Source of the DNA: Lobosporangium transversale
Taxonomy: Eukaryota > Mortierellomycota > Mortierellomycetes > Mortierellales > Mortierellaceae
NCBI RefSeq assembly: GCF_002105155.1
Contig: NW_019029002.1
Coordinates: forward strand, 186,001 to 250,000
DNA length: 64,000 bases
Direction: 5' to 3'
Position 1 is the first letter of the stretch, and each line of letters begins with the position of its first letter. The notes beneath the pieces were generated by a model. It did no database searches. It was given only the letters and a program-made list of their open reading frames with translations, and was not told the DNA's origin. The position numbers were made by a program, and so were the translations under genes. Positions 18,080 to 53,505 of this stretch are shown piece after piece.

Positions 18080-18211
18080 ATATTCGGATGGATTGTAAAT
18101 TGAAGTGAATATTTGAATAGGTAGGATGAAAATAAAGTGAACACATGGAATAATATAGAGGAGTTGTAATAAAGCGCTTTATATCCAATAGCTTGCAAAG
18201 AGTATATCTGT

Positions 18212-19600: not shown

Positions 19601-19649
19601 AGACCGATTGCACGTACTTTCAAAAACCATCATGACGCGCACAGACCAT

Positions 19650-19700
19650 GGGGGCGACTTTCCAAATTCTTTTATAGAGATGAAATCCAAAGTCGCCCCC
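19650..19700 (+). repeat. Palindrome R1 of element A
   Basis: 51 bp: left arm GGGGGCGACTTT, AT-rich centre (AATTCTTTTATAGAGATG), right arm AAAGTCGCCCCC. Flanks CAGACCAT and GGTTAAATATT recur at the other copies. It lies between the converging transposase and primase-helicase genes. Confidence 0.9.
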
Positions 19701-19770
19701 GGTTAAATATTAATCCATGACTTTTCAAAAAGAATACAATATCGTAATCTGCTCAAGCCCTCCGTTGTAT

Positions 19771-22700: not shown

Positions 22701-22963
22701 TTTGCTCGAAAAAAGCATCTGTAAGGGTTCGGGAGTTTGTTATATATATCCAAAAATGTAGGTAGATCCTTGTAGCTTGCAAACTCATAAGACGACTTCT
22801 TGCCATCGGGAGAAAGGCCACTTTCGTACATCACAAAGAAAGTATTACTGTTCGCATCAGCCCATTCGTGAGCCCTTGCTTGTGGACCCAAGGTTTGCTT
22901 CTTGTCAGCAGCAAAGTAAACTGATTCAAATTTTTTGTAAGTCCGGTTTGTATTTTCAGACAT
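19771..22963 (-). CDS. Primase-helicase (UL52-type primase, zinc finger, UL9-like helicase), frameshifted, element A
   Basis: About 1,064 codons from ATG 22963 to stop 19771, with one frame break in a run of six A/T bases at 22709-22714. The N-terminal part has archaeo-eukaryotic primase motifs: YYDIDW (DhD), KISLHV (SxH) and a third site GVYSRSRSIRCL. Next is a UL52-like zinc finger (CDVCKRRH, then LYCYR). The C-terminal half is a superfamily 2 helicase of the replication-origin-binding (UL9) group: Walker A SETGTGKT, DEVSSIF, ITVGLDC and QMLRRVRH. It would unwind and prime the element's own DNA. Compared with the intact 1,018-residue copy in element B, only one base at the T-run separates the two frames, so it is a recent break, a recoding site or a base-calling error. 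Confidence 0.85.
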
Positions 22964-23057
22964 AGTAGGTAATATGTTGATAGTTTATAGTATATGAGTA
23001 GCAATTTCATTTTATTTTGTAAACTGAGTGAACAATAGACTATCATGGGAATGATTC

Positions 23058-23620
23058 TTATTTTTCTTGAGTATGGGTGTTAAAGACCTTTTGAACATAA
23101 ACGATCATCTCCTCCTCAGCCTTGCTATCCTTGAGAACGAAGTTGCGGCGGCTGAAGTCGATTGGTGCAGCCACGTCATCTTTCATCTGTAGGTAAACGT
23201 TTTCGCCTCTTGGAGAACGATCAGATCGCAACTCTGCAATCTCAACGGGGTCGAGGTCAGGATTGTCAGCAATGAACTGGTCCAAGGTACGATCGACAGC
23301 CTTGCGCTGCAGCGCAAAGAGACGATAGCCTCCAATAGGCAATGGCTGAGGCTGCCGGAACTTCAAAATAGCAAAGACCTCCTGCTTTCCATAAGGGCGA
23401 CTCAATACTCGGTCGCGGTTGGCCTCCAGGCGTGCACGCTCGCTATTGGCAAGAGCATCCTTAGTGTTCTTCAGCTCAAGTTGAGTTTCAGAAAGACAGG
23501 ATAGGGTGCCCTCAAGTTGTGCCTGTGATATTTCAAGATCATCCTTTGCATCTGCGAGTTCAAGCGAAATAGCAGCAAGCCGCTTGCGCAGTATCTCGAT
23601 GGTAGTGGGTTCTTCGCGCA
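23058..23620 (-). CDS. Coiled-coil protein with conserved C-terminal domain (element A), start unclear
   Basis: Open frame of about 187 codons ending at 23058. Residues about 5-70 form a heptad coiled coil (LAAISLELADAKDDLEIS). The C-terminal half (FAILKFRQPQPLPIGGYRLF, then NPDLDPVEIAELR and SPRGENVYLQM) is shared with the homolog in element B. Its pattern of a YR-aQ-R core followed by a NP-x-R-G-N-Y-x-M stretch recalls the DUF3627 domain that follows KilA-N in large DNA viruses; this link is by eye only. No in-frame ATG lies near the 5' end; an acceptor-like CAG at about 23622 hints at an upstream exon, but I could not join one in phase. It sits tandem behind the primase gene. Confidence 0.6.
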
Positions 23621-23980
23621 CTGTTTATGAATTGCAGAGTATTAGTTTAAGAGCAGGCTTCATTGGTGCGCGCAGAAAGCATGTACGTACTGGTTGTCTT
23701 GGCTTATAGCGACCTGGTGGAGGAATTCAGGGAGCGAAGGGAAAGGGATGGAGGAAGGGAAGGAATAAAATGGATGTTTCTCATGGCGATGAAAGTGTTT
23801 TAACATTTTGTGATGTGATAAGGAAAAGAGATGAGATGGCATAATTTCATTGGATGGAAAGTAAATCGCATGACCCTTTGACCTTATGCTCTTTATTTAA
23901 AAAAAAAGCCACACCGCCGTCTGCAGGACTTTATCAGATGTGGTGACACGGCGGCGCAGATGGGTCTGTGCACGGACCAT

Positions 23981-24030
23981 GGGGCGACTTTTCAAATTCT
24001 TATATAGAGATGAAATCCAAAGTCGCCCCC
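23981..24030 (+). repeat. Palindrome R2 of element A
   Basis: 50 bp, same orientation as R1: GGGGCGACTTT, centre AAATTCTTATATAGAGATG, AAAGTCGCCCCC. Flanks CACGGACCAT and AGTTAGATATT. It separates the coiled-coil gene from the Crinkler gene. Confidence 0.9.
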
Positions 24031-24423
24031 AGTTAGATATTCTACCGCGGCATGGCTCTGGTGGTCGCTCGCCAGAACGACAATTATAAAATATGTCTTA
24101 TAAATTGTTCTCTGAACTGAAAGCACCTGAAAGATTGTGATTGCTTTTCACGTCACAAAGAATATGACATGTGAATGATTTGAAAAAATATTCCTCAGTC
24201 CTGACTTAAAAGGAACAGATTTATCAATTGTCACTCCTTTTCCTTCGTCACGCAAGCAACTTTTTTTTTTCCTCCCTCAACTTCATCATCACAACTTACA
24301 TTGTCACAATTTTGAACCATCCTGCTACTGAATTAACATCCTTTAACATTTTTATCAAACTTTTCCTATTTTCTGCCCTCTGTCCATTTATATCCTTGTT
24401 TTTAAAAAGTTTTTGAAATCACA

Positions 24424-27244
24424 ATGGGAAAGACCAGAACACCATCTCGAAACGCATCACCTCGACCTAAACCGTATGAAGAGTGTTCAAGCACCAGTGG
24501 GCCTAAAATCTCCGAGCCAACTGAACTAAAGATTTTTTGTATTGTTGAGGGAGAAGCAACGTCTTTTCCTGTAAACACTCTTTCCAATCGTTCGGTCGGC
24601 GAACTCCAGCAAGCCATCAAGGCAGCGAAGAAGCCAGAACTCGATCATGTTGCCGCAGACAAGCTCACCCTCTACAAGGTTTCCATCCCTGACGAAGGCA
24701 AGACCATCGTCGAGTCAGAAATCGAGTCAAAAGAGGCTCTCGCAATCGCGTCAAAGAAGCTTGGGAACATATTTAATTCTAAACTTCCAGATGAAACTAT
24801 CCATATTTTTGTCAAGCTGCCGCCGCAAGGTATGTATTTAGCTTTTGATGGACTGATGGTTGTTGATATTTTCAATTGATGAAGCTATCTCATCACGGTC
24901 ACGTGTATCCCTCCCTTTTTTATGTTGTTTGAGATGAATCTCGGCAACACTATTTAACCGGGGGCGACTTTGGATTCATCTCTATAAAAGAATTTGAAAA
25001 GTCGCCCCCGTGGTCCGTGTGCATGCTCTGACTCTCACTGTTGTCTGAGAACATAGTTCATTTTTATTTTTATTTTTATTTGACCTTTTACATTGATGCA
25101 TTTGTTAGTTTTTCTGATTGAATCTGTTCGCGTTTCGCACACATGCTCTGACTCTCCATTAGCTGGCGTTTATATCTCATTGACAGCAATATATTCTTTG
25201 ATCTGATCAAAATGCTAACGTTTCTGCCATTGCTGCGCTCTCTTATCTTTCTAGAGACATCGGAACAGATTCTCAAGAGAAAAATGGATGAAGGTAATAA
25301 TTTGTTTTTTGCTGTATAGATAGATAGACTTGGTGACTGACTATATGTTATGGTACTAACCAACTGTGTATGTGTACGATGGTCATAATTAGATCCACGG
25401 TATATTTCAGCTTCAAAGAAGATGCGCATTGAGGAAGGGTGGAGAGAATACAGGGCTTCTGATGGCAAAATGGTCACGTTACCGCCCTCTTGGATCGCAA
25501 TGCTGGAGAATCCTGAAGACCCGCCCGATCCACGTAATAAGTTTAATCATCTGAAAGCGGTAATCAGGCTGGTGATCGAGTTTGACATTCCATCCTTGGG
25601 CCGAAGACCGAAACAATTTAAGAAATATAATTCGGAATTTATGATTACGGATCAGATGCTGGAATTGTGGAAGGAGATTAGTGCTGAACAAATATTTTCA
25701 TACCAGCGAGTCCTTTCTGGTCCTATGGGGGTTGGCAAGTCATATCTATTCCTATTTCCTTGCTGCAAAAGGATATGCGGAAGGGTGGCTTACCCTTTAT
25801 ATACCAGATGCCGCGATATTAGATGGAGCTACGGATGAAATCTTCGGCAATGGTACTGTTAGAATGTTTCTTCGCTTTCAACAGGGATATCTTGACGGCA
25901 TCTGATCTGGAAAGTCTCCTCAACTTTCTTGGAAATGTACATTACTCAATTAAGGGTGCTTGCGCAGTATTCGACCTATTCAAACAGAAGGAGCGCAAAA
26001 CACTGTTCATTATCGACGAACATGGAAAGTTATTCCAAGAAAAACCGTACGTGCCGGGAAAAATACCCGTTCCTGAAGCATCTAATGAACCTTAATCTAT
26101 GGGAGTCTCAATACAAAGGATCTAGAGTGATATTTACAGGAACAGCCCATGCCAAATATGAATTGGAGATTATGGAAGACAGTGCTCGAGTTTCCTTATT
26201 GTACTTTGTTGGCCCACTATCCGAGACAGTGTTTTCAAAATGGTTGGAGGTCCACCTGAACCAACCCGATATTGTCCAGGATATAATGAGGATTACAAAC
26301 CGTGTGCCACGAGAGTTTATGTTCCTCATCCGGTCAATTGAGGAAAGACCACTCACAAGAAATAGCATTGATTCGTATGTAACTGAGAGAACAAGCGAGT
26401 TTCACACTGTAGTTTGGACGTACTACGAATCTCGCAGCGAGACATCGAAGAAGAAGTTCGCTAAAAGCCTTGCAACAGTCTTTCCTTGGCAACAACTCGC
26501 AGAGTAGTGATTTTGAATGGGATTTCCGTGACCTAGGGCTTATCTATCGTCTCAACAAGAGCCGCGGAGCCATAAACTATGTCTTGTGCCTCCCAGCGCA
26601 GAAAGCACTCTTTCAGGCGTTTACAAATATGCCTCATCATGAGCATATCCTGAGGGGAGTTATTCTTGGAGAGATGAGTGGAGATGATTTCGAGTTGGCA
26701 CTGCTGGTCCCGGTTTTTGACTTTAACCAAGCCAATCGTTCTCAAAGCAACAAACCTTATCGGCCAGAATCCAACAGAGATTATAATGAACTTTAAGGAT
26801 CATGAGACAATCTATCAGGGCAAGACTTCTCTTGGACGTGGCTATGGACATGTACTGAGCCATTGTCATTCGAGTTATCCTCGCTTTGATTTCATACTCG
26901 ACACAATGTTTATCCAGGTGTCCATAAGTAATTTCCAAGAACATGAGAAGACGCCAAGTAAGAAGATCCAGAACGCTTTTAATGTGAGAGGTACCGACGG
27001 CAAAAATCAGATTGAAAAATATTTGGACGAAGTATTTGAAGGTAATCATTCCGCCTCAATTGACGACGATGGACATTTTGTTGTCAAAAAGGATGGAGAG
27101 CCAGTAACTGGATTTAAAATAGTTTACATGCGTGGTTCCCCTGGTGCACCAAACCACACTGGATTAATCAAGGATTACAAAGATCTTCTTCATGTCAGCT
27201 TCGACGAGCTCAAAGAGAAACTTTTTAGAAATATCCCAACTTAG
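24424..27244 (+). pseudogene. Crinkler (CRN) effector gene with NTPase and nuclease-like body, frameshifted
   Basis: Exon 1 (24424-24829) encodes a Crinkler N-terminal ubiquitin-like domain (IFCIVEGEATSFPV, VGELQQAIKAAKKP, KLTLYKVSI). Exon 2 (25255-25293) and exon 3 (from 25411) join in phase and lead into a P-loop NTPase (VLSGPMGVGKSYL; IIDEHGKLF; RVIFTGTAHAKYE) and a C-terminal PD-(D/E)XK-like part (RFDFILDTMFIQVSIS; IVYMRGSPGAPNHTG). Exon 3 is broken by five single-base frame changes: near 25748, near 25870, in an A-run near 26060, near 26475 and near 26735. Between them the protein stays well conserved without stop codons, so decay is recent or some breaks are base-calling errors. Crinklers are secreted or intracellular effectors in oomycetes and early fungi. 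Palindrome R3 lies inside intron 1. Confidence 0.8.
24960..25009 (-). repeat. Palindrome R3 of element A (inside Crinkler intron 1)
   Basis: 50 bp, opposite orientation to R1 and R2 as judged from the centre and flanks (TATTTAACC on the left, TGGTCCGTG on the right). It falls within intron 24830-25254, between the Crinkler N-terminal exon and the body. Confidence 0.9.
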
Positions 27245-27363
27245 AATTTTTGTCACGGTATTCAGTAATAATATAGTTCTTAATCCTATAAAAAGGCTTG
27301 TCGTAGAAATTTAATAACACGGTTCTTTATTTTTGAGATGTATCACGGCTAAAATATTTAACT

Positions 27364-27414
27364 GGGGCGACTTTGGATTTCATCTCTATAAAAGAATTTG
27401 AAAAGTCGCCCCCC
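27364..27414 (-). repeat. Palindrome R4 of element A
   Basis: 51 bp, same orientation as R3, with flanks TATTTAACT and CATGGTCCGTGCG. It stands 40 bp before the right terminal repeat and 120 bp after the Crinkler stop. Confidence 0.9.
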
Positions 27415-27454
27415 ATGGTCCGTGCGCGCCACAGAGAGGTCACTCACTTGCTAA

Positions 27455-28003
27455 GGCGACTGTTCGATGCTTGTTGGTTTTCCAAATCTGCTTTGATTTC
27501 ACCATAGTTTAGCGGAATTGATTAGCATCCCCTGAATGGCTGCCATCCAAGGGACTAACTTCGAATGGACAGGATTTACTGTGTTGTTCAAAACAATAAA
27601 ACTTGACTGAAAGTCTGCTAATCCTCAAACTATGAGGCAAATAATGCCTCTGAACGCTTCAATAGGATTATGGCGAGTTTTTGGGGTGCAGAAAAGACAA
27701 GATTGTATCTTTTGAGCAATGAAGGATATAGGATTTGTTCCTTGGAGGCAAACTTTTTTGAAACCACGCTTGTTGCTAGTAAAAACACAAATGGTTCCCG
27801 TTTTCCGCATACTTTCAACGCTTCCACAATCCAAGGGCTGTGATGTAGCCATTAAATGTTACATGTTTGTCGAAGTATTGACACATCCCTTGCAAAAGTT
27901 CAGATGTATGCTAAGAATATTGTTTAAGGGACGTAGAGTAGTCAATAGCATGTGGCAGTATTCAGGTGTTTATACAGTATCAGATGGAGTCCGAACAGTC
28001 GCC
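27455..28003 (+). repeat. Right terminal direct repeat of element A
   Basis: 549 bp, same orientation as the left copy, with the same GGCGACTGTTCG / CGAACAGTCGCC tips. Confidence 0.9.
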
Positions 28004-40267: not shown

Positions 40268-40948
40268 TTAAACAGTACTGATCCTCAGTGTAGGCAATCT
40301 CTCTTTAAGCATCGCTTTCAACTTTTGAATCTCCTCCAGGTGTTCTGCTCGTGCCAGGCAATGGCTGTAAAGGCCAAACTTCCGCAACGGCAGCATTAGT
40401 TGCTTACTATGTAGCAGATGGTCCACCAGAAGCTTAAACATCTCCAAATTAAAATGCATCAAGGAATCGGACGACGACATATGGAAAGGCATTACCTTTA
40501 GGATAAATAAATATCATAAGCCTTTCCAACATGCAACGTCCTTTCAGCAGTACCGTTTGCTCTCGGATTTCTGTAACACTTTCAATAACTGTGGCGAATT
40601 CACAAGAGCTTGGTGATCCATAGAGAAGCTCCAGCGACCTCAGTGTTCGAACCAGTGGTAGTTTGTCGTCAAATACTCTTTCAAGTAATGTACCAACTAT
40701 GAAGGTTCCGAGTGTAAGCTCTACAAGGTTGGGGCAGCAGACGAGAAGATTACTGAAATGGGACACTGCAGAGGGGTTACTGAAATTAATTCTGATCAAG
40801 TGAAGGCTTCGAAGGTTTGGTGCCATTGCAAAAGTCGAAATGTTGACACGGGAGAAAAGGTTCTCAAAATATCTGAGTTTCATCGATTGGATACGTGCGT
40901 TGCTAATGAGCTGAATAAGTGGATTGAACCGGCGACCGCGATTGATAA
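40268..40948 (-). pseudogene. LRR gene, C-terminal part, cut off by element B
   Basis: Minus-strand leucine-rich repeats (FNPLIQLISNARIQSMKL; APNLRSLHLIRINFSN; CPNLVELTLGTF) ending at stop 40268. The frame changes once near 40495 (a single base between IYPKG and MPFHMSSSDSL). The upstream part of the same gene is at 52045-53980. Joining the two parts through a single TTA keeps frame exactly, showing that element B split this gene. The first codons read from the minus strand here run out of the element's terminal repeat. Confidence 0.8.
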
Positions 40949-41464
40949 GGCGGACATCCGAACCCGAGAAGTTGCCCAAAATACAAATAAATGTAAGATA
41001 TTCGAAGGTCCAAGCTACATCCGAAGGCTCTCAGAAAGTAAGTTGTTGCCATAACTAATCTTTTAAAATATATTCTGATGAATAGATGCGAGACTCGAGC
41101 AACAAATCTAATTAAAAACATTCTAACTATCACAAAGCTGAAGTCCTTTTGCCCGGTGATTTGATAGGCTGTTTAAAATTTATTTATTAAAGACATTGAC
41201 TACTTATCTGAGGATAGACTTCATGTGAGACACTGATGCGGCTGGTCAACCTATAACCAGACCAACAGACACCACTGCTGCCTTCGGATTATAATGCCAA
41301 ACACCCAATACATATACTACGGGTTCATTAAAACACACTGTTCGGCCTGCAGCCCACTAATATCAAACACTCCCAAATTGGGCATCTCTTTTTTAAAAAG
41401 TGCGATTAAATTCGAACAGGATTTATCTGGGTGGCCAAATCAGTTTCGAGCTCGGATGTCCGCC
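40949..41464 (+). repeat. Left terminal direct repeat of element B
   Basis: 516 bp with tips GGCGGACATCCGA and TCGGATGTCCGCC, same orientation as the right copy. The single difference I found is C at 41354 against T at 51934. The inner flank is TTG, not TAA, so the repeat did not insert on its own here. Confidence 0.95.
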
Positions 41465-41557
41465 TTGTGGTATCCCTTCTTTCGTTTTCGGTCCTCATGA
41501 TACCCGAATTCTCATATGATAACACATTCCTACGGAAGAAGGGATAGTTAAACTAGA

Positions 41558-42943
41558 TCAAAACTCGCGTTTGGAGTTCCAGTAGTCATCAATGGCGCGA
41601 GTCTGATTAAAGCTGCTGAGTGGCTCCCATGAATTGTCACATTTATTGTAGCCCTTCCATTGAACAAGATATTCTACTCCATCCCCTTCTCCTCGGTGCT
41701 CTATTATCTTTTTGATTTCATATGCAGTTTCTATATTGCTATCACCCATTTCATGATCGTTGTCAACATTTGAGGTAGTAGTGATACCGAGATTTAAAAA
41801 AGCATCCTGAAGCTGATACATGCTTCGAGCATCTTTGATTTCTACAACATAGCTTGGAGCAGTGGGAATTTGAGAAATGTTTGCCTCAGTGCCATCTGGA
41901 TAGTCGAAGTTCTCTTGCATCCAGAAGCTGTGATGTGGCTCTATAGTTATATTACGTAAGGCAACCATGCGTTTGATATTGAGAAGTAGGCAGCATAGCT
42001 TAAATTGCAGAGAGAAAATACTCTTTTCAGATACCCTCTTCACCACAGTATGACTGAATTTGGTGAAGATGGTCTGCATTTCTCCGAAATAACTTTCAAT
42101 CCTAGAACGAAAACTCCCAACCATTTCGTTATACTTTTTTTCCTGGTCTGTAAATGCTATCCCTCTTGTCTTGCGGACTGGACAGCAGAAGTTTGTTGAT
42201 TCCAGTTGGTCACTGTGTTCAATGATCCCATGTAGGAATTGCGAATAGCCTCCATCCAGGGTAATACAGTCAAGGCGATCGATTTTCTTCTCAATGGCCA
42301 TTTTGGAGAGCATGGTTCCATCACTAAAATCACGGCATTCGGCGGGTTGTGATACAAACACAATCATGCTATTCATATCACAGCATACTTGTGTGCGGAA
42401 CCCAGACTTTTTGAGTTTGTATGAATACAAACTGGCTTTATCTGCATTTAGGTATGCCACTCGACTATCATGGCCATCGATGTGAAGTGTAATATGTTTG
42501 AACTCCTCTGGGTTGATGGATCGTGATGTGAGCAGACGCAAGGTAATACTTGAGGACATGTTAGCAAGACAGGACGTTAACTTTGAATCCAGGGTATGTG
42601 TTTCCCTGCCAAAAAAATCTTTATACACATCATGGAATGAACTCTTGGGTAAAAATACACTCATCTCAGAGGTCGAAACCCCTTTCAATAACATGTACAG
42701 TATTAGGATGCCTTTCTCAACATTTCTGTAAGGGCCAGGATAATTCCTCGTGCCAAAAATCACTGTCAAGAAAAAGAACACTGGAACGATGCCCAGACGG
42801 TGCTGCACAAAGTCTTTGGCCTTCTCTATATTTTCCACACTCTTGATCTCAGTACGGTGGAATTTGCTCCGCTTCAAAATGGGCCAGTCCTGGTGCAGGA
42901 ATCCCCATTGAGTTGATATCAATCTGTCAAACTCTGCATCCAT
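41558..42943 (-). CDS. DDE transposase with C-terminal chromodomain (element B)
   Basis: Single exon, 461 residues, ATG at 42943. Homolog of the element A transposase along its whole length. Catalytic acids: Asp156 in HIDGHDS, Asp230 in TLDGGY, Glu283 in SRIESYFGEM. The last about 55 residues are a chromodomain (YEIKKIIEHRGEGDGVEYL, VQWKGYN, SWEP) with a better aromatic cage than in A. It reads outward toward the left repeat, opposite to the element A arrangement. Intact frame, near-identical terminal repeats and a clean target duplication suggest recent activity. Confidence 0.88.
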   Translation of the reverse strand: MDAEFDRLISTQWGFLHQDWPILKRSKFHRTEIKSVENIEKAKDFVQHRLGIVPVFFFLTVIFGTRNYPGPYRNVEKGILILYMLLKGVSTSEMSVFLPKSSFHDVYKDFFGRETHTLDSKLTSCLANMSSSITLRLLTSRSINPEEFKHITLHIDGHDSRVAYLNADKASLYSYKLKKSGFRTQVCCDMNSMIVFVSQPAECRDFSDGTMLSKMAIEKKIDRLDCITLDGGYSQFLHGIIEHSDQLESTNFCCPVRKTRGIAFTDQEKKYNEMVGSFRSRIESYFGEMQTIFTKFSHTVVKRVSEKSIFSLQFKLCCLLLNIKRMVALRNITIEPHHSFWMQENFDYPDGTEANISQIPTAPSYVVEIKDARSMYQLQDAFLNLGITTTSNVDNDHEMGDSNIETAYEIKKIIEHRGEGDGVEYLVQWKGYNKCDNSWEPLSSFNQTRAIDDYWNSKREF

Positions 42944-43016
42944 TGTATAACATCACTAGCTATTATAGATATATATTCATTTAAAGATTATATTTTGGGA
43001 TTTGCTCTGCGGACCA

Positions 43017-43066
43017 GGGGCCAACTTGCAAGCTCTCTCTTAGAAAAGAATTTGTAAGTTGGCCCC
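43017..43066 (+). repeat. Palindrome P1 of element B
   Basis: 50 bp with 15-bp arms: GGGGCCAACTTGCAA and TTTGTAAGTTGGCCCC side, centre GCTCTCTCTTAGAAAAG. Flanks GCGGACCA and, further right, GGGTAAATATG. Confidence 0.92.
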
Positions 43067-43258
43067 GGATAAACTGGTCGGGTAAATATGTTAAAAAATA
43101 AAAAGATAGCCCTCGGGAGGGAGCAGGCGAGTGGCAGACGAGAGATACGTTATACTCGACTTTTTAATAAAAGCGGAAATAGGCACATTTTTAAATCAAA
43201 ATCTTGTGTTCTTTATTTTTAAAAAGTGCATAACATATAATGCAGTCAGCGCGAGGTC

Positions 43259-43325
43259 ATTGAGTGTTGGTGTTGTAGATGCGAGTGATATATTCGATCA
43301 TCTCCTCCTCAGTCTTCTTTTCCTA
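43259..43325 (-). pseudogene. Remnant of a coiled-coil/C-terminal-domain gene (last ~20 codons)
   Basis: The minus strand encodes EEEMIEYITRIYNTNTQ and a stop, matching the last residues of the coiled-coil proteins of both elements (EEEMIVYVQKVFNTHTQ in A). It lies just downstream of the intact tail of the element B copy, so it is a leftover of a second, lost copy or a swapped 3' end. Confidence 0.55.
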
Positions 43326-43386
43326 CCGAAGGTCCTATCCACTAAGCGTGGGGCTGGAGGATTGCAGAATGCTGTGGGCCTTCAGG

Positions 43387-44170
43387 CTAATCGCTTTCTG
43401 GGCTGGGAGCAACAGCAGGAGTGGTGGCAGTGGCTGGACTGGCAGCGGCAGCTGGGCCGTCCCTAGTATAGGTATGGAAAACCTTTGTGATATACCCAAT
43501 CATCTCAGCTTCAGTGTTATTCTCGCTTCGAAGTACAAAGCTACGGTTATTAAGCTTGATCGGGGCATCTTTGTCGCGCCTCATATGCTGAATGACATTA
43601 TCTCCTCTTGGCGACGGATCAAATCGCAACTCCTTAACCTCAATAGCATCAAGCTCAGGGTTGTCGGTAATAAATTGCTTGACTCTACCGTCGATAAGCT
43701 TCCGTTGTTGAGCAAAGATGCGAAATCCTCCAACTGGCAATGGTTGAGGCTTCTGGAACTTTAAAACAACAAAGATCTCCTGGTCTTTAGATGGACGCGG
43801 TAAAACTCGATTCTGGTTGGCTTCTTGGAGTGCGCGCTCGCAGTTGACAAAGGCATCTTTAACGTTCTGCAGTTCGAGCTTAGTCTCAGCGTGGCTAGAT
43901 AACTCCTTATCAAGCTCCGCCTTGGTCCCTTGGCGCGCATACTCACTGTTGGCAAGAGCGAGTTTAGAGTTTTTCAACTCCAGTTCTTTCTCTTCCAAAT
44001 TGGATAGAGCTGTGTCAAGATCCGATTGAGTGGATTCCAGGTCATCCTTGGCATCCATAAGGTCTAGCTGCGTATTTCGGAGTTCAAGTGAGGGCTGCAA
44101 CCTTCTCTTGCAGTCTTTCAATACTGGACTCTTGTGCTGGTCTGGCGGGTCTGGTGGTGGTGGTGGTCAT
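43387..44170 (-). CDS. Coiled-coil protein with conserved C-terminal domain (element B), one frame change
   Basis: ATG at 44170 opens (MTTTTTRPARPAQESSIERL) and runs into a stop near 44094; one base shift there continues as the 230-codon frame ending at 43387. About 100 residues of heptad coiled coil (LELRNTQLDLMDAKDDLEST and on) precede the conserved domain: FVVLKFQKPQPLPVGGFRIF, FITDNPELDAIEVKELRF, PSPRGDNVI. An Ala/Pro tail follows that element A lacks. Role unknown; a DUF3627-like (KilA-N partner) relation is my pattern-based guess. Position between two palindromes, as its own module, differs from element A, where it stays with the primase gene. Confidence 0.6.
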
Positions 44171-44526
44171 AGTTCAAAATTGTTTTTTGGGTGAAGTAAT
44201 TAAGAAAGTTTTGAGTGGCATAATTTCAAAAGGCCACGGTTTAAATTGCAAATTTCGACAGAAATTGGTTGAGCTGGCATAATTTAATTGGTTCAGGTAA
44301 GGAAAATTGGGAAGGAAAAGAGGTGATTTGGCAGAATTCCATTGGACGAATTTTTTTTTTAAAAAAAGAAAAGGAAGGAAAAGGAAGCAAACTCACGTCA
44401 CAGGGTGAAGGATTTTATTTTAATGACTTTAAAAAGCACTATCTCGTTTTGGCGAACCTGAGCCACAGCCGGAAATTTTTTTTTCGGTGCATTTGAACAG
44501 CTTCATGCGCACGGGCCAGGCTTGGC

Positions 44527-44578
44527 GGTGGCCAACTTACAAATTCTTTTCTAAGAGAGAGCTTGCAAGTTGGCCACC
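44527..44578 (-). repeat. Palindrome P2 of element B
   Basis: 52 bp with arms GGTGGCCAACTTACAA and TTGCAAGTTGGCCACC. Both arms carry the same extra T/A pair relative to P1 (GGTGGCC against GGGGCC), so the pairing is kept. The centre is reversed relative to P1, but the outer flank order (GGCCAGG side left, GGGTAAATATGG right) is the same. Confidence 0.92.
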
Positions 44579-45353
44579 GGCTAAACTACGGGTAAATATG
44601 GTGACTGGATCGCACGGCCACCACTACCACCACTTTTTTGCATTTTTAAAAAAAAAAAAAAAAATTTATTACTGAGATGTCGATTGTGTTACCATTCGCC
44701 TCCAGAAATAAATGCTCTTGAAGACCAGCTCAAATTCCATATAAATACACCCAACTTGTGGAGGACCTTTTCTGCTCTATTTAATTCTATTTTCTAAATA
44801 CGACAATTAAAAAGGTGACCAACATTTGCATCATTGCGTGGTGGATTGGACGTATCTGGCACGATCTGGACTAATAATTAGCGAAGCCACTTCTTAGCGA
44901 CAGCCGTGGACAGCACGTGACAATCCTGTCGGGGTATGGACATATCTGGCACAATCTGGACTAACAGTTGGCAAGCCACCTTTTAGCGACAGTTGTGGAC
45001 AGCATGCGACAATCCCGGGTAGCAAAATTTCTTTCACTACGCCACAAAGAAACAAATGCTGATGTCTGGCAAGAAATTTGCGACCGTAAATTTATAAACA
45101 TTTAAGCTGTCACAATAAAACTCTCATGGAATTTTTTTTGGAAAAATGCATTTGAAGTATGTGGGACCTAATCAATATGTCTTTTTTTGAAATTTTAGAT
45201 ATAACAGTCACAAATGTGACATGATGCTAAAAATAGATGGTTTTTTTTTGAAAAAAGAAAAATTCTCACACTTCTTCTCACACTTCTTCTCACACTTCTA
45301 CAACTTTTCAATCACACACTTTATTCCCAAGTTTTCCTTTCGCCCTGAAAATA
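44579..45353. other. Upstream region of the element B cargo gene
   Basis: 775 bp without a gene. Contains an imperfect direct repeat of about 65 bp (GGACGTATCTGGCACGATCT near 44848 and GGACATATCTGGCACAATCT near 44936) and a triple TTCTCACAC near 45262-45297, just before the cargo ATG. Confidence 0.6.
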
Positions 45354-47208
45354 ATGATTTCAAAAGCAGAATTTCTCCGCAACACCAAGGCAACTGAGCC
45401 CTATCACATTATTGAACCATTCGTACGATTATTTGGAATTAAGGATACAGAAGAATTTTTAAGTGTTATTTCCGCCGCCTTGACGGAGCTCCTTGATGTA
45501 AATTACGACAATAATGACCAGGAACTATATCAACAATGCAAACGCTACGCTCGATGGAAACAAGTTGTTGAGGTATAGAGGCCCGAGATAGTATTAAATA
45601 ATTCATATTTGAACGCCTCTAATGTATGACCAAGCAGACCGTAACACGATCTCTTATTGTTATTTATAGTCAAAGACATTCCGCACGTCTTGTACCAAAT
45701 TTTTCGCTAAGAAGACTGCCGCCGCGACGTCTACCCCTGCTACCACTGCCAACACATTTCGTCGCTCGGACCGAATTAAGGAGATCCAGTCACCAGCAGC
45801 GCCTGTGAAATCCCTAACTGAGGAGGAAATACGGATTGATGGATTATTTTTAAAAAAAGACACGGAAACGATCGGACAAAGGATCAAACAGAGAGCTCTG
45901 GACCTAGAAGCTACTGTAACATCACCTGAGTTCAAAGATGTACACGAGCGCCGGATCTTTTCTCTTGGAGCCTCGTCAATTCTGGATCTAGTAGATATGT
46001 CAAACGAGAGTCAGCTTTTCGATGTATTTCCCAGTAAGAGTGATCAGGATGAGTTAATGACGATGTTTGCTCATCTAAGCATGAAGAGATCCATTAATGC
46101 ACCTGAACCAACTGAGTTGCTGACACATTGGGATATCTGCAGTGCGATTGCTTCTAAAGATGGGCTTGCTGAAGCACGATCCTACCTATATCGAGAGATG
46201 GGAGCCTGTCTGCCGAGCTTTGCGGAGAATCTCAAGCCTCTCCTGATAATGATTGACGCCCTCCTATGTTATCCCAAGATATTTGCACAAGAGTATGACG
46301 TAACGGAGCAGGACTTAATGAATGTTCTTTGGAGCCCGATGCTGTCTTCCTTATTTCTCCGGCAGCAGAGTGAAACTGGGATTAGGATAAAAGGAGGAGA
46401 TTCGACACAGGTAGCGTCAAACATCGAGAAAAGAGAATTCTACGATGACGGACACGCTATTGCCTTCAAAATAGATTCTCGGATCATAATAGATGTTTCC
46501 CGAAAGGGTGAAATCGACATTGCAGCCGTCGAGGTTGCTCCCAATTGCCAAGAGACCAAAATTTTTTCAGATGGGGCCAAAGTCCTCCGAGAGGCGAAGG
46601 AGATAGTAAATGGCTTGACCAAAATTTTTCCGGATGACGAAAACTTTCTCAAGAATACGATTGGTTACGGCGTTCAGATAGGGAATCTGTCTGGGTCGAT
46701 ATTTTCTCTGCATCTAGTTGCTCCGAAGCTATATGTAGCATGGCCAGAACATACATTCTGCCTTCCTGATTCACGAGGATCCTTGGATCGATTCAAGGAA
46801 GTCATTATAGCACTATCTTGGTTTCAACAGGCCGTCCAAGGCACCGCCATGAATATCAAATCAGCTCTTTCAGTGCAGAAAACAGTCGGAGCACTCTATG
46901 GCCACGGCTACAGCCATAAACCACTGGGTCAAAAGCAGTGGACTAACCCAACCTGGTTTGAACCATCAAAACCATCTAAGGCTCGGCCAATCCAGGAATT
47001 AATGAGGGTGGTGCACCCCATTCAGACTGCAATTAGTCCTCAATCAAGCGAAGACCTAAATAAGCAAACCCATGCGAATGCTACATATGACAGTAATGGA
47101 TGGGCCATTGTAGTGGCCAAAGATGGCCGACCAATGTACTTTAACAAGCATACACTGCAGTATCTTGAGGAACGTGGTGGCAAAAAAGCCAAAATGGACG
47201 TAGCTTAA
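45354..47208 (+). CDS. Cargo protein of element B, possible PD-(D/E)XK nuclease
   Basis: Exons 45354-45572 and 45670-47208 give 585 residues, intact. The start ATG follows a TATA-free, TTCTCACAC-rich leader. No Crinkler N-terminal domain is seen. A segment near residues 330-365 (HAIAFKIDSRIIIDVSRKGE, then IDIAAVEVAP) has the D...E-x-hydrophobic/charged layout of PD-(D/E)XK nucleases, though the last residue is Val rather than Lys. A KKTAAATSTP-type basic linker separates a small N-terminal part (about 73 residues) from the main body. It sits where element A carries its Crinkler, so cargo is the likely role. Function is inference. Confidence 0.6.
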
Positions 47209-48053
47209 TATATCAGGTAATCTATACTCTTGCTTTTCATACATGCATCTGACGTTATTCTACTTGAATTCAGTCTTGTTTTTTTTTTAAAAAAAAAAAA
47301 AAACAAAGGGTATTTTCTCGCTTCGCATTTGTATTTTCTTCTGATATTCAGATAGCATAGTGAGACCTGCACCCAATCTTATGTAGAAGTATTCCTGTTT
47401 TACGAAATAAATCAGCCATTCACAAAGACTTAGCATATCTGGTGTCCTCGAGACTCACGAGGACGAAGTGCGGGGAAGCAGCTGTGGTCGAAAGCCATTG
47501 TCTTTTTTTTAAAAAAAAATGTAACCCGAGACTTTTCGAATTAATGGATGCCTGGGCTCCAACTGCTGGGCCGCTCCCAAAGCTATGTAAGACTCGCTTC
47601 GGCCTCTTCCACTTTTTTTTCAGCCAAGGCTCGCGAGAGCGCATATATCCAATAAGCGGAAGAAATTATTTGACAAGGGTCCCAATCAGTCAGCTCAACT
47701 TTGATATTGGATCCCGGATGTCCAAAATGGCCCACGATAATTCCAATAAAATAACAAGATATTTTCAAAAATCCGGAAGATTACGTCTTTGAAAATGCTG
47801 TGCTGTTGGTCATATTATATTTGCATCAGTTCACAGCCCATAATCACCCCGGATCATACTAGGGTCGACACAGACCCGGGGCAGTTTGTTCAGTTGCAAA
47901 AGGATTAGACTGGGATTATAAATTAAAGTTATTTGTATTAATAATAATAAACTTGGGGATTTCTTTTTTTTTAAAATGCAAAAAAGTGGTGATAGTGGAG
48001 GCCTTGTGATCCAGTCCCATATTTAGCCGGCCGAAGGACCTGACAGTTTAGCC
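47209..48053. other. 845-bp interior spacer of element B
   Basis: Between cargo stop and palindrome P3. Short A/T runs only, none of 18 or more. A half-copy of the palindrome flank (ATATTTAGCCGG) occurs at about 48020, 25 bp before P3. No gene recognised. Confidence 0.5.
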
Positions 48054-48103
48054 GGGGCCAACTTGCAAGCTCTCTCTTAGAAAGAAATTTACAAGTTAGC
48101 CCC
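48054..48103 (-). repeat. Palindrome P3 of element B
   Basis: 50 bp, GGGGCCAACTTGCAAGC ... ACAAGTTAGCCCC, with one arm mismatch. Flanks TTTAGCC and TGGTCCGTGCGCAGGG: outer orientation opposite to P1 and P2. Confidence 0.92.
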
Positions 48104-48192
48104 TGGTCCGTGCGCAGGGAATGATTTCAAAAATTAAATAACTGAATATAAATTTTTTATATGTATATACAACAAGACGCACATTATAAACA

Positions 48193-51100
48193 ATGTACAA
48201 ATTTGGAGCCACATTCTACTCGCAAAAGCAACAGGGCCTTAGGCCACAGGCAGCATCTTTCAAGAGAGCTGATGAGGCTCAGAACACATTTCTTGTTGCT
48301 CATCAATTCAAGCTCAACTCGGAGGGCAAACCGCTTTGGGCATTTGGTAGCTACAAAAATCTGCAGAGCTTCCTGGAATGCACAAAGTATGTACCAGCCA
48401 CTGAATGCTTCTTCTTTGAGCAAATCCGCGATGGGACATCTTGCTGGGAATACTACGACCTGGAATGGGATCCCTCAAAGACAGAGGACACTGAGGAGAC
48501 AATCTTCTCAGATTTTTTGCAGCAAAGGAATGCCTTCTGTCTAGAATATGAGGTCTTAGCTTCTGAGTGCCGCATCTTGAGTGCATCAAATGCTGAAAAA
48601 GGGTCAATGCATATCATCTTATCAGGGTCTGGATTCAAGTTCAGAGACAACACATGCCATATGAAAAACTTTATGGACGCCTTCCATTTGATGGTTAAAG
48701 AACATCCACTTTCAAAACACATTGATTGGATTGTCTACACAAAGAATCGAAACTTCAGATGCATCAATAGTGCTAAGCGCCATGATCCAACAAGGGTTCT
48801 CCGACCTGCAATTTGGCACAATGCCTCCTGCTCTGCACCTGAGAGTGAGTTTTTTGTCACCAATGTGAGTGCTGATGCCACAGATATTGTGCATTGTCAT
48901 CTTGCAGCAAGCAAAGGTGCTAGAAATAAAGTACCTCAAGTACAGGGGTCTGAGCAGGATCAAGACCAAGAGCAAAACGAAAAGTTGCCACCTAGTGTGA
49001 TTAAAGCAATAAATACCATGCTTGCAAATATGGATTGCTTGTCACAGTTCAAGATTGGCGAATCTCATAACAATCGTATGCACCTGAAGCGTATAAGATC
49101 AGGGCACTGTCAAATATGTAATAGGATCCACGACAATGACAATGCATATGTGACAATTGCAGATCAGGGGAAAGTGTACCTCCACTGCTATAGGGTGGAT
49201 GCAAATTCCAGGCGTGATGGACTTCAAATTGGCAAACTGGATTTTCCAAGCATGATCGCACTTCGAGTACATAGGGCACAGACCAATCAAGAAGAAACAA
49301 TCACTGCGAACAAACATTGCTCACTTCGCCATTTGGAGTATAAGAAAGTTATGAAGCTGCTGCAAAACCAGAAACAGAGTCTTGTGATCCGCAGTGAACC
49401 AGACACTGCTAAGACCTCTTTTGTTGAAAGTTTTATGGATAGGCACAAGAACTTAGCATACATTTTTGTGTCTCCTCGACAATCACTAGCACGCAATCTA
49501 GAGAAGCGCCTTGAGCTAAGGAGCTATCTTAGTTTCCCTGGGCCTGTCTCTGGGAAGCGCGTGATCATTCAAGCTGAGTCCTTATATAAGCTTGACCTTG
49601 AATACTATAGCATGGATGTGGTCCTGGTCTTGGATGAGGTCTGCTCTATTTTTGAACAGATGACAAGTGTGGGCACCATGAAAGGCCGCCATGGCGCAAA
49701 CAATCAAGTCCTAGAAGAACTTATGCGCAAGTCCAAGAGGGTAATTGCCTTGGATGCTGATGTGACAGACCGAGAGGCTGAAATCATCAAGTCTGTGAGG
49801 AGCGATGTTTTTGTCATTCACAACACTTTCAAGCCACAGCAAGGGCATCAAGTTGTGTGCTTCCAGCATAAAGAAGTCTTAGAGTCTCATGTTATTGATC
49901 TTGTAAAATCTGGTCATAAGGTCTGGATATCAACCACACACTCAGCTGAAGATGCCGAGACCCTGCATAAGACACTGCAGAAAATGGGCAGAAGGGGTGT
50001 CTGTATCACAAAGAACACATCTGATGCTGATAAGATTGGCATCTCACAAAATATCAACAAAATTGTGCTGGACCTTGACTATTTCATTCACACTCCGACC
50101 ATCACAGTTGGTATAGACTGCAATGTGAAGCATTTCAACTATGTCGTGGGGTTCTTTGAAGCACAAACTGGCGTCATTGTTGAAACATGTAGACAGATGT
50201 TGCGACGACCGCGAAATGTCAGCACTCAAAAATATCTCATCTATATCAAAAATGTAACTAGCAATCTACCCACCACTTTCAGAGAGATTGTTGAGTATAT
50301 GGAAAGCCAGGAAGTGCGACTGAATGGATGTGAATTAGACATAAGTGGATTTCCTTATATATCTCAAATGGGTCAGCCTCCATCCGTTGACTTGAAAGTG
50401 CTATATGCATTAATATACATGCAGACACTCATCAAGAAGCACTTGACAAAGAATGACTTTTATCAACGCTTTATTGACCAAATGGTCCAAGTTGGCTGCA
50501 GTGTACAGGAAGCTGACTCGCATCTGTGTAAAAACGATGAATATACTGTGGAACTAAACCAAAACAAGAAAGAGCTGCTACATATCAAGTACACAGGAAT
50601 TTCGAAAGCTAGGGTCCTTGATACTGAGGAGTTTTCTCGGTTAGATGTACAAAACAGTCGAACACAGGAGGAACAATATGCTGTGACGAAGTATAAGCTA
50701 ATGGAGACCTACAGTGTACAAGATGCATCTCTTTTGACTCCTGATTGGGTTGAGAAATATGACAAACCTCGAGAGAAGAAGATCTATAAGAATCTTGCTA
50801 TGTTGAAAGAGGACCCCACACTTCAAATCTTGCGACAAGAAGATAGATTGGGTCTCAAATGTGGCAAAGCTACAGTTGGGGTTCACACACTGGGAAATTC
50901 GAGATACCTCAGGTTTAAGTATGCAAAAGACATTCTTGACAGCTGTGGATTTGATTCGCCATTTGATGACAGAGAGATGTCAGCTGAGGAGCTCAAGAGA
51001 AAAATAGATCTTCGTTGGTCAGATTTGGTCAAGGACGGAAGTATGAGAGACATCTGCACTCAGCTGGGGATTAGATGCCCCTCACACAACAATTGGGACT

Positions 51101-51249
51101 TCAAAAATAAGAAAAGCTTTTTGAATAGTGTGTTGAACGAGATTTGGGGGATCCACATAGTCAGAACTGATCACAAGTCGCATCATTATTATATCAAGTA
51201 TATGACAGAGGTTGGTAAACACAAAGATGACTTTTTCATGACACAGTAG
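48193..51249 (+). CDS. Primase-helicase (UL52-type primase, zinc finger, UL9-like helicase), element B
   Basis: Intact single exon of 1,018 residues, ATG at 48193. Primase motifs: YYDLEW (Asp89, Glu91), GSMHIIL (Ser138, His140) and IVYTKNRNFRCINSAKR (about 180-195). Zinc finger: CQICNRIH to LHCYR (about 306-333). Helicase: VIRSEPDTAKTSF (about 398-410), SPRQSLARNLEKRL, VLVLDEVCSIFEQMTS (about 478-492), HTPTITVGIDC and VETCRQMLRRPRN. Herpesvirus UL9 and UL52 do origin unwinding and priming; here both are in one chain. The Walker A loop has lost two glycines compared with element A (PDTAKT against TGTGKT), which may weaken ATP binding. Flanked by palindromes on both sides. Confidence 0.9.
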   Translation: MYKFGATFYSQKQQGLRPQAASFKRADEAQNTFLVAHQFKLNSEGKPLWAFGSYKNLQSFLECTKYVPATECFFFEQIRDGTSCWEYYDLEWDPSKTEDTEETIFSDFLQQRNAFCLEYEVLASECRILSASNAEKGSMHIILSGSGFKFRDNTCHMKNFMDAFHLMVKEHPLSKHIDWIVYTKNRNFRCINSAKRHDPTRVLRPAIWHNASCSAPESEFFVTNVSADATDIVHCHLAASKGARNKVPQVQGSEQDQDQEQNEKLPPSVIKAINTMLANMDCLSQFKIGESHNNRMHLKRIRSGHCQICNRIHDNDNAYVTIADQGKVYLHCYRVDANSRRDGLQIGKLDFPSMIALRVHRAQTNQEETITANKHCSLRHLEYKKVMKLLQNQKQSLVIRSEPDTAKTSFVESFMDRHKNLAYIFVSPRQSLARNLEKRLELRSYLSFPGPVSGKRVIIQAESLYKLDLEYYSMDVVLVLDEVCSIFEQMTSVGTMKGRHGANNQVLEELMRKSKRVIALDADVTDREAEIIKSVRSDVFVIHNTFKPQQGHQVVCFQHKEVLESHVIDLVKSGHKVWISTTHSAEDAETLHKTLQKMGRRGVCITKNTSDADKIGISQNINKIVLDLDYFIHTPTITVGIDCNVKHFNYVVGFFEAQTGVIVETCRQMLRRPRNVSTQKYLIYIKNVTSNLPTTFREIVEYMESQEVRLNGCELDISGFPYISQMGQPPSVDLKVLYALIYMQTLIKKHLTKNDFYQRFIDQMVQVGCSVQEADSHLCKNDEYTVELNQNKKELLHIKYTGISKARVLDTEEFSRLDVQNSRTQEEQYAVTKYKLMETYSVQDASLLTPDWVEKYDKPREKKIYKNLAMLKEDPTLQILRQEDRLGLKCGKATVGVHTLGNSRYLRFKYAKDILDSCGFDSPFDDREMSAEELKRKIDLRWSDLVKDGSMRDICTQLGIRCPSHNNWDFKNKKSFLNSVLNEIWGIHIVRTDHKSHHYYIKYMTEVGKHKDDFFMTQ

Positions 51250-51432
51250 GCTTGTATATAATGATTTTTAAAAAAGTGGCGTCCTTCAGTCAAGATTTAG
51301 AAGATGGATTCAAGTATAGTTCATGTAATATTACCATCTGGGTAACCAATCAGAGCAGGCTAATAGGCTAATAGGCTAATATATTATTTGAGTTACTACT
51401 GAGGACTATATAACCGGGAGTAACATTTAGCC

Positions 51433-51482
51433 GGGGCCAACTTACAAATTCTTTTCTAAGAGAGAGCTTGCAAGTTGGCCCC
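51433..51482 (-). repeat. Palindrome P4 of element B
   Basis: 50 bp, GGGGCCAACTTACAAATTC ... GCTTGCAAGTTGGCCCC. Flanks ATTTAGCC and TGGTGCGTGCGCAGGG, as at P3; the centre is reversed relative to P3. 47 bp before the right terminal repeat. Confidence 0.92.
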
Positions 51483-51528
51483 TGGTGCGTGCGCAGGGCT
51501 TGACTCACCCTCCAAAAGAAATTGGGAA

Positions 51529-52044
51529 GGCGGACATCCGAACCCGAGAAGTTGCCCAAAATACAAATAAATGTAAGATATTCGAAGGTCCAAGCTACAT
51601 CCGAAGGCTCTCAGAAAGTAAGTTGTTGCCATAACTAATCTTTTAAAATATATTCTGATGAATAGATGCGAGACTCGAGCAACAAATCTAATTAAAAACA
51701 TTCTAACTATCACAAAGCTGAAGTCCTTTTGCCCGGTGATTTGATAGGCTGTTTAAAATTTATTTATTAAAGACATTGACTACTTATCTGAGGATAGACT
51801 TCATGTGAGACACTGATGCGGCTGGTCAACCTATAACCAGACCAACAGACACCACTGCTGCCTTCGGATTATAATGCCAAACACCCAATACATATACTAC
51901 GGGTTCATTAAAACACACTGTTCGGCCTGCAGCTCACTAATATCAAACACTCCCAAATTGGGCATCTCTTTTTTAAAAAGTGCGATTAAATTCGAACAGG
52001 ATTTATCTGGGTGGCCAAATCAGTTTCGAGCTCGGATGTCCGCC
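51529..52044 (+). repeat. Right terminal direct repeat of element B
   Basis: 516 bp, same orientation and tips as the left copy. The outer flank is TAA, the target duplication. Confidence 0.95.
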
Positions 52045-53505
52045 TAATGTCAGGTGTTGGTCGTCGAAGATACTCTCCGTCCACGCAGAGGCGGACAAGG
52101 TTTGATGTAGTAGCAGCCGTTGCAAATTCTCAAAAGTCCTCCATTGTTGCGTCCCACCCGAATTTGAAAGTCAACTCCTGGATACCGCGCGCTTGGACCA
52201 TGACTTCATAAAACTCCTTTGCTTGTACTGACGATCTGAGACTAGTGTCGATGCTACCATGCTGCTCATCATATTCGCCGCCGTTAGCTGCAACGATCTC
52301 CTTGAACCGCTATACTACTGATTCCCTGTAGCTCTCTCGATAGTGGTCGAAACATACCCATTTGACATGGCCCTCAAGAGTGACAATGCGATATAGGTTA
52401 CCGAGGGTACGGCTCTGGTTGTGGGCCAGCAAAAACGATTGGAGCCGCCGTAGGTCTGCCCCTTCAAGCACTTCTGATTTCCCGATCATTGCCTGGCCCG
52501 CAATGTTATTAATACCACCATCGGCTTCCTGATGATTGTTTTGGAAGTAATTGATTGATTCATCCACAAGTAATACGATCCCGTGCCCTGACACCTTCAC
52601 TACACCTCTCGCTACATCAATCCAGTCTGAGATGTCGAGTTGAGCCAATGGAGGCAAGACAAAGCCAGCAGCAAGGACTCCGTATTTAAGTATCTGTAGC
52701 ATTGTCAATACATAGGATCCGTACTTCTCAAAGAACTCTGCGGGTCGGTCGATATTATACCCTTCATGCTTTGCCAGATGTATATGGTGCGGGATATTGC
52801 TCTTGGATGGCTTCGTGTGACCGCCACACTTACGCAGGAAGAACAACCGAAACTGGTATGCAAATGGTTTCCCTAGCTTATCAAGGGGTCCTGTAAGCTT
52901 TGGGAGGACGATGAACAGTCTGGGGATTGGGTATTCGTGCAATTCGTAGGTCTGAGTGATGGGAGCTTGCACTCGGCTTTGAATGATGGCTAGCCTGTCC
53001 AGAACCTGTTTCTGCATCTGCAACATCTCACTCTGTTTATTCTGCAAAAGCTGCAGTTCCTCCCTATTCTTCTTTATCTCTTGTTGCATCTGCTGTCGAA
53101 GGGCTTTGATGAGCTCGGTGTCTTCTCGCTGCTGACTAAAATGTACTGCCATGGTTGCTTTGAGCCATAACATCGGTTTGATTCATTTGGATCACCTCCG
53201 TTGATTTAGAGTGAGAGCTGTCGATGCAGTTATTCTGAAAGGATGGCGGTTGGACATTAGTGTCCATAGCACTGGGAAGAAGGGTCAGTTTGGGTCCCTC
53301 CAAAAGCTTGTCTGAGATGGGAAGGTCCCCAATGTGCTTTGACATTGCACTCGTTAGTGCTTCGGCGGAGGATGCTTTTAAGAACGCATGAAAAGGTGAA
53401 AGGGGTACCTCAGAGGTGGCGTTGATACGAGCTGGCGCGCTGACCACGACTTGCAAGGTAGTCCCTGGTCGATATTGGACCCTTAAAGGAACAAGACTAA
53501 AAGGA

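Follow-up and report, generated by a model that had tools for sequence, protein, structure and literature searches.

We identified, in the genome of the fungus Lobosporangium transversale, a recently inserted DNA transposon of ~11 kb (element 1), which occupies positions 40949-52044 of the 64,000-nucleotide stretch analysed here (G000:C45:186001-250000, hereafter the window). It is bounded by two terminal direct repeats (LTDRs), each with inverted tips of its own, and it encodes a chromodomain DDE transposase together with a replicase that contains a herpesvirus-type helicase. We read it as a novel form of paired-direct-repeat transposon with its own replicase. In our assessment, it is probably an autonomous DNA transposon built on the LTDR plan, with a PHIS-type chromodomain DDE transposase, a replicase of its own, and palindromes at which replication may start and modules may be exchanged. 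A second family member (element 2) was found at 17530-28003 of the same window, 13 kb from element 1, and all genome searches were run on the assembly of 42.7 Mb in 127 contigs.

Borders and genes of element 1

The left flank of element 1 ends GATTGATAA and the right flank begins TAATGTC, and reading of the flanks placed a target site duplication, TAA, at 40946-40948 on the left and at 52045-52047 on the right. Directly inside them, repeat alignment located the two LTDRs in direct orientation (plus strand) at 40949-41464 and 51529-52044, each 516 bp long, with a sole mismatch at 41354 (C versus T, 1 of 516 bases). Each LTDR is an inverted-tip unit with 13-bp tips, which starts with GGCGGACATCCGA and ends with its complement, and the inner LTDR edges carry no TAA. 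A preliminary description of this DNA had proposed these exact borders, the two 516-bp repeats with a single-base difference and a recent insertion, and all three were borne out. The tip GGCGGACATCCGA had eight exact matches in the genome, four of them inside element 1, and the reversed control pattern had none. Apart from the two ends of the element, no full copy of the element 1 LTDR was found in the genome; the remaining matches were a 169-bp stretch (70%) and a 54-bp stretch.

The element interrupts a leucine-rich repeat (LRR) gene, whose halves had been described as rejoining in frame once the element is removed. On the minus strand the rejoined flanks do read D-I-I-N-R in frame, and a paralogous LRR gene at C78:159099-160074 aligns across the rejoined site over 1,631 columns in a single block (71.6% identity), ungapped at the joint. 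A second LRR paralogue on C78 could also be aligned to the site, with gaps near the joint. It is a paralogue, and not an allele, that provides this evidence of an empty site. The target gene itself (window 52048-52310) has an in-frame stop ~30 codons ahead of the joint; because of this stop, the gene may have been defective before the insertion of element 1.

The genes of element 1 follow the order transposase, coiled-coil gene, cargo, helicase, with palindromes at the joints. A Pfam scan covered six proteins in all, four of them internal to element 1. The transposase (41558-42943, minus strand, 461 aa) matched DDE_Tnp_4 (E 4.8e-8) and Chromo (E 5.8e-11), in agreement with the preliminary description, and both domains lay above the Pfam cut-off in the transposases of both elements. 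Its catalytic residues D156, D230 and E283 were invariant in 15 aligned transposases, 13 of which were picked from 120 listed matches, and by sequence we assign it to the known DDE_Tnp_4 (PHIS-type) group. Relatives of this transposase are widespread in Mortierellomycota and present in Apophysomyces, Cunninghamella and Rhizomucor, as judged from the best 120 of 175 matches.

The replicase (48193-51249, plus strand, 1018 aa) joins a primase-like N-terminus to a UL9-type helicase, which matched Herpes_ori_bp (E 6.2e-14); the same Pfam domain was found in the helicases of both subfamilies distinguished below. With the C98 helicase as the query, the best match among solved structures was the herpes origin-binding protein (E 2e-8). 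In the N-terminus, the motifs EYYD, SxH and ID, which we take to be primase-polymerase motifs, were conserved in seven sequences. The replicase had seven database matches, namely the window's own, three from Mortierellaceae (44-60% identity) and three distant ones (24-31%). We also considered an inactive helicase in element 1, whose Walker A motif reads DTAKT, not GTGKT, and set it aside; since the relative from Entomortierella lignicola carries the same motif, it looks like a clade trait.

The coiled-coil accessory protein (43387-44121, minus strand) and the cargo gene lie inside the borders, as the preliminary description had stated. The coiled-coil protein had no Pfam match above the cut-off, and its gene includes a stretch in a different frame that reaches an ATG near 44167. 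Among its 35 database matches, those with names are presumably all from Mortierellales, judging by the organism names. The gene numbers and contig sizes of other Mortierellaceae suggest that the transposase and the coil share one contig in E. lignicola (12,593 bp) and E. chlamydospora (14,870 bp), and that the helicase adjoins the coil in Mortierella sp. AD010 (27,540 bp). The cargo gene (45354-47208, plus strand) consists of an ORF at 45805-47208 and a predicted upstream exon from 45354; the ORF had no Pfam match above the cut-off and no Crinkler domain, and the gene had three partial matches elsewhere in the genome.

Family members, target sites and arrays

Seven more transposase copies in the genome matched residues 3-461 without stops at ~50% identity, besides many fragments, and a copy on C52 matched residues 1-411 at 66% identity with one stop. 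For the helicase, there were four further long open copies (C45, C98, C13 and C26) and broken copies on C74, C76 and C120. Element 2, whose transposase is one of the seven, and the copies on C98, C13, C74, C76, C120 and C26 constitute subfamily 2, each with two direct LTDRs of ~550 bp, and each of the eight autonomous copies whose two ends were examined had paired LTDRs. The LTDR type of subfamily 2 is present in 40 or more copies, 40 of 101 candidates having been scored. Between the subfamilies, the transposase gave pN/pS values of 0.33/0.85 and the helicase 0.36/0.83, both with pS close to saturation.

Ten two-LTDR elements were read at both outer ends, and six had perfect 3-bp target duplications: TAA in element 1, C74 and C33, AAA in C76, AAT in C26 and ACT in C40. 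Seven solo-like LTDRs were fetched, five of them with both exact tips, and four of these five were flanked by 3-bp duplications (TAT, AAT, ATA and TGA); a solo LTDR on C41 had both exact tips and no matching duplication. The preliminary description had suggested searching Mortierellomycota genomes for further copies with the tips of element 1 and 3-bp duplications of the form TWA. A solo LTDR with these tips does exist in this genome (C33:725112-725653), but its duplication is GTA. Two more single tips (C35 and C63) fell outside the solo scoring. A fixed TWA target was rejected, with TWA seen in 3 of 11 scored duplications, all of them TAA. The target stagger of the family is 3 bp without a fixed sequence.

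The two LTDRs were identical in C98 and in C76, each pair being different from the other LTDRs compared. The C74 pair shows one substitution and two gap columns, and the substitutions number 4 in C13, 9 in C120 and 12 in element 2. Besides paired and solo forms, a tandem array of cargo units sharing LTDRs was found at G000:C35:574917-609265. Its LTDRs at 581768, 586750, 594895, 602965 and 608727, with that at 574917 upstream, all point in one direction, and each of the five examined was preceded by a palindrome. The units starting at 579282 and 584264 are 4,982 bp each and identical.

Element 2 repeats the LTDR plan of element 1 but has a different gene order: the transposase comes first, then the helicase together with the coil, then a Crinkler module and an NTPase module, again with palindromes at the joints. 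Its LTDRs, located by repeat comparison, are at 17530-18079 and 27455-28003 (both plus strand). The transposase (18212-19600, plus strand) is ~50% identical to that of element 1, and it is followed by the helicase (19771-22830, minus strand; its N-terminal part lies upstream in another frame) and the coiled-coil protein (23061-23624, minus strand). The Crinkler N-terminal domain exon (24406-24876, plus strand; PF20147, E 2e-21) precedes cargo pieces at 25389-27241 (plus strand) related to the NTPase module of C98.

A third subfamily (C73 and C52) was compared for gene order only. On C73, beside its transposase, we observed a 546-bp inverted repeat pair (606838-607383 and 607495-608040, 94% identical).

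Palindromes and Crinkler cargo

Each element of the window contains four palindromes ~49 bp long, in which an asymmetric spacer separates two inverted arms of 11 bp. They are located at 43017-43066 (minus), 44529-44578 (plus), 48054-48103 (minus) and 51433-51482 (plus) in element 1, and at 19651-19699 (plus), 23981-24029 (plus), 24961-25008 (minus, in the predicted intron after the Crinkler exon) and 27364-27412 (minus, before the right LTDR) in element 2. Nearly all genes are separated by them, with the exception of the helicase/coil pair of element 2; some palindromes stand between divergent genes and others at 3' ends. A one-arm consensus matched 106 places in the genome with up to 2 mismatches, and the reversed pattern matched none. 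As single strands, the palindromes folded better than 200 of 200 shuffles (z -4.0 and -5.0). The subfamily arms GGGGCCAACTT and GGGGCGACTTT are compensated on the opposite arm, and by our reading 3 of 11 arm pairs appear to have changed on both sides between the subfamilies. A count of 45 element-2-type palindromes, which missed those of element 1, gave perfect arms in 38. No known structured RNA reached the Rfam gathering cut-off in 17000-53000. We also tried the idea that the palindromes are shrunken LTDR tips and rejected it: the arms of element 2 are the best internal match to its tip (10/12), but this does not hold for element 1.

The palindromes also mark places where copies diverge. Homology between copies breaks at palindrome edges, and the modules between palindromes differ between element 2 and the cargo of C98. 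These two are 99% identical to just beyond the second palindrome, ~680 bp around the Crinkler exon match at 89%, and the remainder is unmatched until the last palindrome and the LTDR. In element 2 the Crinkler N-terminal domain (PF20147) is followed by NTPase-type pieces; in the cargo of C98, a Crinkler exon is accompanied by a second ORF and by a 667-codon open frame whose P-loop matches are weak. In element 2 and in one unit of the C35 array, the Crinkler exon is followed by a donor-like GTATGT, the palindrome and an acceptor-like TTTCTAG; since these signals stand on its two sides, the palindrome probably lies inside intron 1 of the Crinkler cargo gene. In C98, the donor after the Crinkler exon is not GT.

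The genome holds at least 150 Crinkler domains, the number scored among 228 candidates. We compared these 150 with 95 palindromes of the 100 listed (106 in total), with five two-mismatch rows left out. Twenty of the 150 domains lay within 700 bp of a palindrome, compared with 0.6 expected under uniform placement. In 16 cases the palindrome was 131-251 bp downstream of the domain and always in the opposite orientation, and in four it was ~430 bp upstream. The other 130 scored domains had no listed palindrome within 700 bp; because of this, most Crinkler genes of the genome are not shown to be cargo. A gene model of Linnemannia hyalina, KI688_007928 (P0037), joins a Crinkler N-terminal domain to a transposase of the family, which is either a real fusion or a model error.

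What the palindromes do can be argued in two directions. In herpesvirus oriS, inverted boxes surround an A+T-rich spacer. The palindromes have a comparable layout (their spacer is 76% A+T in the element-2 type), and one of the element's own genes codes for a relative of the oriS-binding protein. For these reasons replication origins are the single reading that we prefer, although we hold it to be less likely than not. Recombination sites or regulatory hairpins such as terminators or insulators, taken together, are at least as likely as origin function, and we put them only a little short of an even chance. The asymmetric spacer, the fixed orientation after Crinkler exons, the positions at 3' ends and between divergent genes, and the breaks of homology at the edges all favour such non-origin roles, whereas no recombinase was found by Pfam among the genes of the element and the oriS-like layout speaks for origins.

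Proposed mechanism and comparison with known systems

We propose that the transposase would cut at the outer tips and insert the element by a staggered cut of 3 bp. A circle with one LTDR would arise when the two LTDRs recombine, and the replicase could copy this circle, starting at the palindromes, into multimers whose LTDRs are identical; one LTDR-to-LTDR unit would then be excised from a multimer and inserted by the transposase. Excision from a multimer would account for a near-identical LTDR pair, as in element 1, of a type without another full copy in the genome. Finally, palindromes at the module edges and in the cargo intron could allow recombination to swap effector modules. The element may thus be a vehicle that copies, shuffles and spreads Crinkler-type effector genes. 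A bolder version has two engines, in which the DDE transposase would insert the element, the primase-helicase would amplify an LTDR circle or concatemer from herpes-type palindromic origins, and the palindromes would double as cassette borders, even inside an intron, reshuffling effector headers and toxin modules; we consider this version possible and on the whole doubtful.

Several observations weigh against the proposed autonomous, replicase-driven LTDR transposon. The circle, replication and transposition steps are inferred from sequence. Of the primase-helicase named in the preliminary description, the helicase half is well supported by Pfam, whereas the primase function is suggested by conserved motifs only, the UL52 primase match of the element 1 replicase (E 0.012) lying below the cut-off. 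Within subfamily 2, helicase pairs differed by 8 nonsynonymous and 2-3 synonymous changes, which gives no sign of selection. The palindromes of element 1 are unlike its tips (8/13, while unrelated places reach 10). LTDR pairs are not uniformly alike, with 4 substitutions in C26 and ~6% difference in C33. Four of the ten two-LTDR elements (element 2, C98, C13 and C120) lacked a matching duplication. Among these, TAC is shared by element 2 (left flank) and C13 (right flank), and ATT by C120 (left flank) and C98 (right flank). C13 and C74 have a common transposase-side flank (99.7%, 798 bp). Element 2 has its right flank, but not its left, in common with C26 (99.5%, 1,292 bp) and C120 (99.7%, 360 bp). 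We read these mismatched or swapped flanks as either crossovers between near-identical copies or assembly joins. Diverged LTDRs coincide with mismatched flanks in element 2, C13 and C120; C98 has mismatched flanks yet identical LTDRs. The outer ends of the C35 array (574917 and 609265) are likewise unmatched (TAC versus AAT), and either unequal crossover or assembly could have produced its identical tandem units.

One alternative is that the paired repeats and arrays arise only from unequal crossover between LTDRs, which is one of the models for KolobokP, that the replicase serves otherwise and that the element is an ordinary cut-and-paste transposon. The identity of the two C35 units, the common flanks of several copies, which indicate recombination or assembly joins, and the absence of any replication intermediate from the sequence data agree with it. 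A long helicase frame nevertheless persists in two subfamilies, between which pN is lower than pS, and in other Mortierellaceae the linkage of helicase or coil genes is maintained. We regard this alternative as unlikely. A chance composite, in which two independent MITE-like 516-bp repeats flank other genes and are co-mobilised like bacterial composite transposons, appears still less probable. Each repeat does have its own tips, solo repeats do carry 3-bp duplications, and the C33 element has a matching TAA with LTDRs ~6% apart. Against this, the identical pairs of C98 and C76 are distinct from the other LTDRs compared, and the plan recurs in two diverged subfamilies. Moreover, because the element 1 LTDR has no other full copy in the genome and its pair is 1/516 apart, copying of one LTDR to both ends is favoured over two insertions. 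A degraded or reduced DNA virus or a linear plasmid is very improbable, because the relation of the replicase to a herpesvirus origin-binding protein and the three distant helicase matches (24-31%), which could be viral, are outweighed by the lack of any capsid or packaging gene by Pfam among the six scanned proteins, of any match in two viral contig scans (whose reach is close relatives only), and of any named helicase relative outside Mortierellaceae (three of three).

The replicase gene of the family could explain the likeness of the two repeats and the formation of multimers, and a fungus that can be cultured now offers a way to test whether transposition can be replicative and use a replicase encoded by the element. 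The family also provides an actual vehicle for some of the Crinkler genes in this Mortierellaceae genome.

The preliminary description had named no known family with this gene set. Indeed, we found no description of one in the open-access literature, Repbase and most subscription papers being outside the search; the plan is nevertheless known from KolobokP and the transposase from the PHIS group. On the features tested, the elements belong to none of the named families.

In the available text of Kojima and Bao (2022, PMC9587614), animal KolobokP has the plan LTDR-internal-LTDR, with solo LTDRs and multimers that share an LTDR, so the LTDR plan itself is already described, with a eukaryotic precedent. 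As reported there, the LTDRs of KolobokP (~450-660 bp) likewise have short inverted tips of their own; unlike our family, KolobokP has a Kolobok transposase, 4-bp TTAA duplications and a His-Me homing endonuclease (PMC9587614). Neither a Kolobok transposase nor a His-Me finger nuclease was found by Pfam among the scanned proteins, which have DDE_Tnp_4 instead. In contrast to KolobokP as so described, the present family is fungal and combines DDE_Tnp_4 and a chromodomain with varied 3-bp duplications, a replicase, palindromes and effector cargo. Reported from a single animal transposon lineage, the paired-direct-repeat plan appears to have arisen a second time, in fungi and around another transposase. 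Reverse transcriptase and gag, which an LTR retrotransposon would have between its repeats, had no Pfam match in the four scanned internal proteins of element 1.

PIF/Harbinger elements typically have a Myb/SANT second ORF. No Myb/SANT domain matched at E up to 1 in the scanned proteins of elements 1 and 2, the targets are unfixed, and LTDRs, replicase and chromodomain are additional to the PHIS plan. The DDE_Tnp_4-type transposase, 3-bp target duplications and inverted tips are shared with PIF/Harbinger and other PHIS elements, which the available text of one survey defines by the fixed targets TWA, ANT, CWG and TNA, with an autonomous PIF/Harbinger consensus of ~4.1 kb and a stated Myb/SANT second ORF in NuwaI (PMC4482050).

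The likeness to herpesvirus UL9 (PDB 9zgf, 9vjh and 9hgj) lies in the SF2 helicase region (E 2e-8, C98 query), which aligns only in part and is here fused to a primase-like N-terminus. Teratorn similarly joins a transposase to herpes-related replication functions; it is reported to be a 180-kb piggyBac-herpesvirus fusion of fish with a viral gene set and a transposase unrelated to that of our family, and neither a piggyBac transposase nor herpesvirus structural genes were found by Pfam in the element 1 scan.

Crinkler (CRN) effectors consist of a header domain and NTPase- or nuclease-type C-termini, with a junction regarded as a recombination hot spot, and those of P. infestans have been linked to helitron-rich regions, according to the available text of PMC5289972. 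In contrast to the P. infestans genes as reported there, the Crinkler genes found here lie inside a DDE transposon, and the predicted intron at their junction contains a palindrome, which would place a physical feature at this long-described hot spot.

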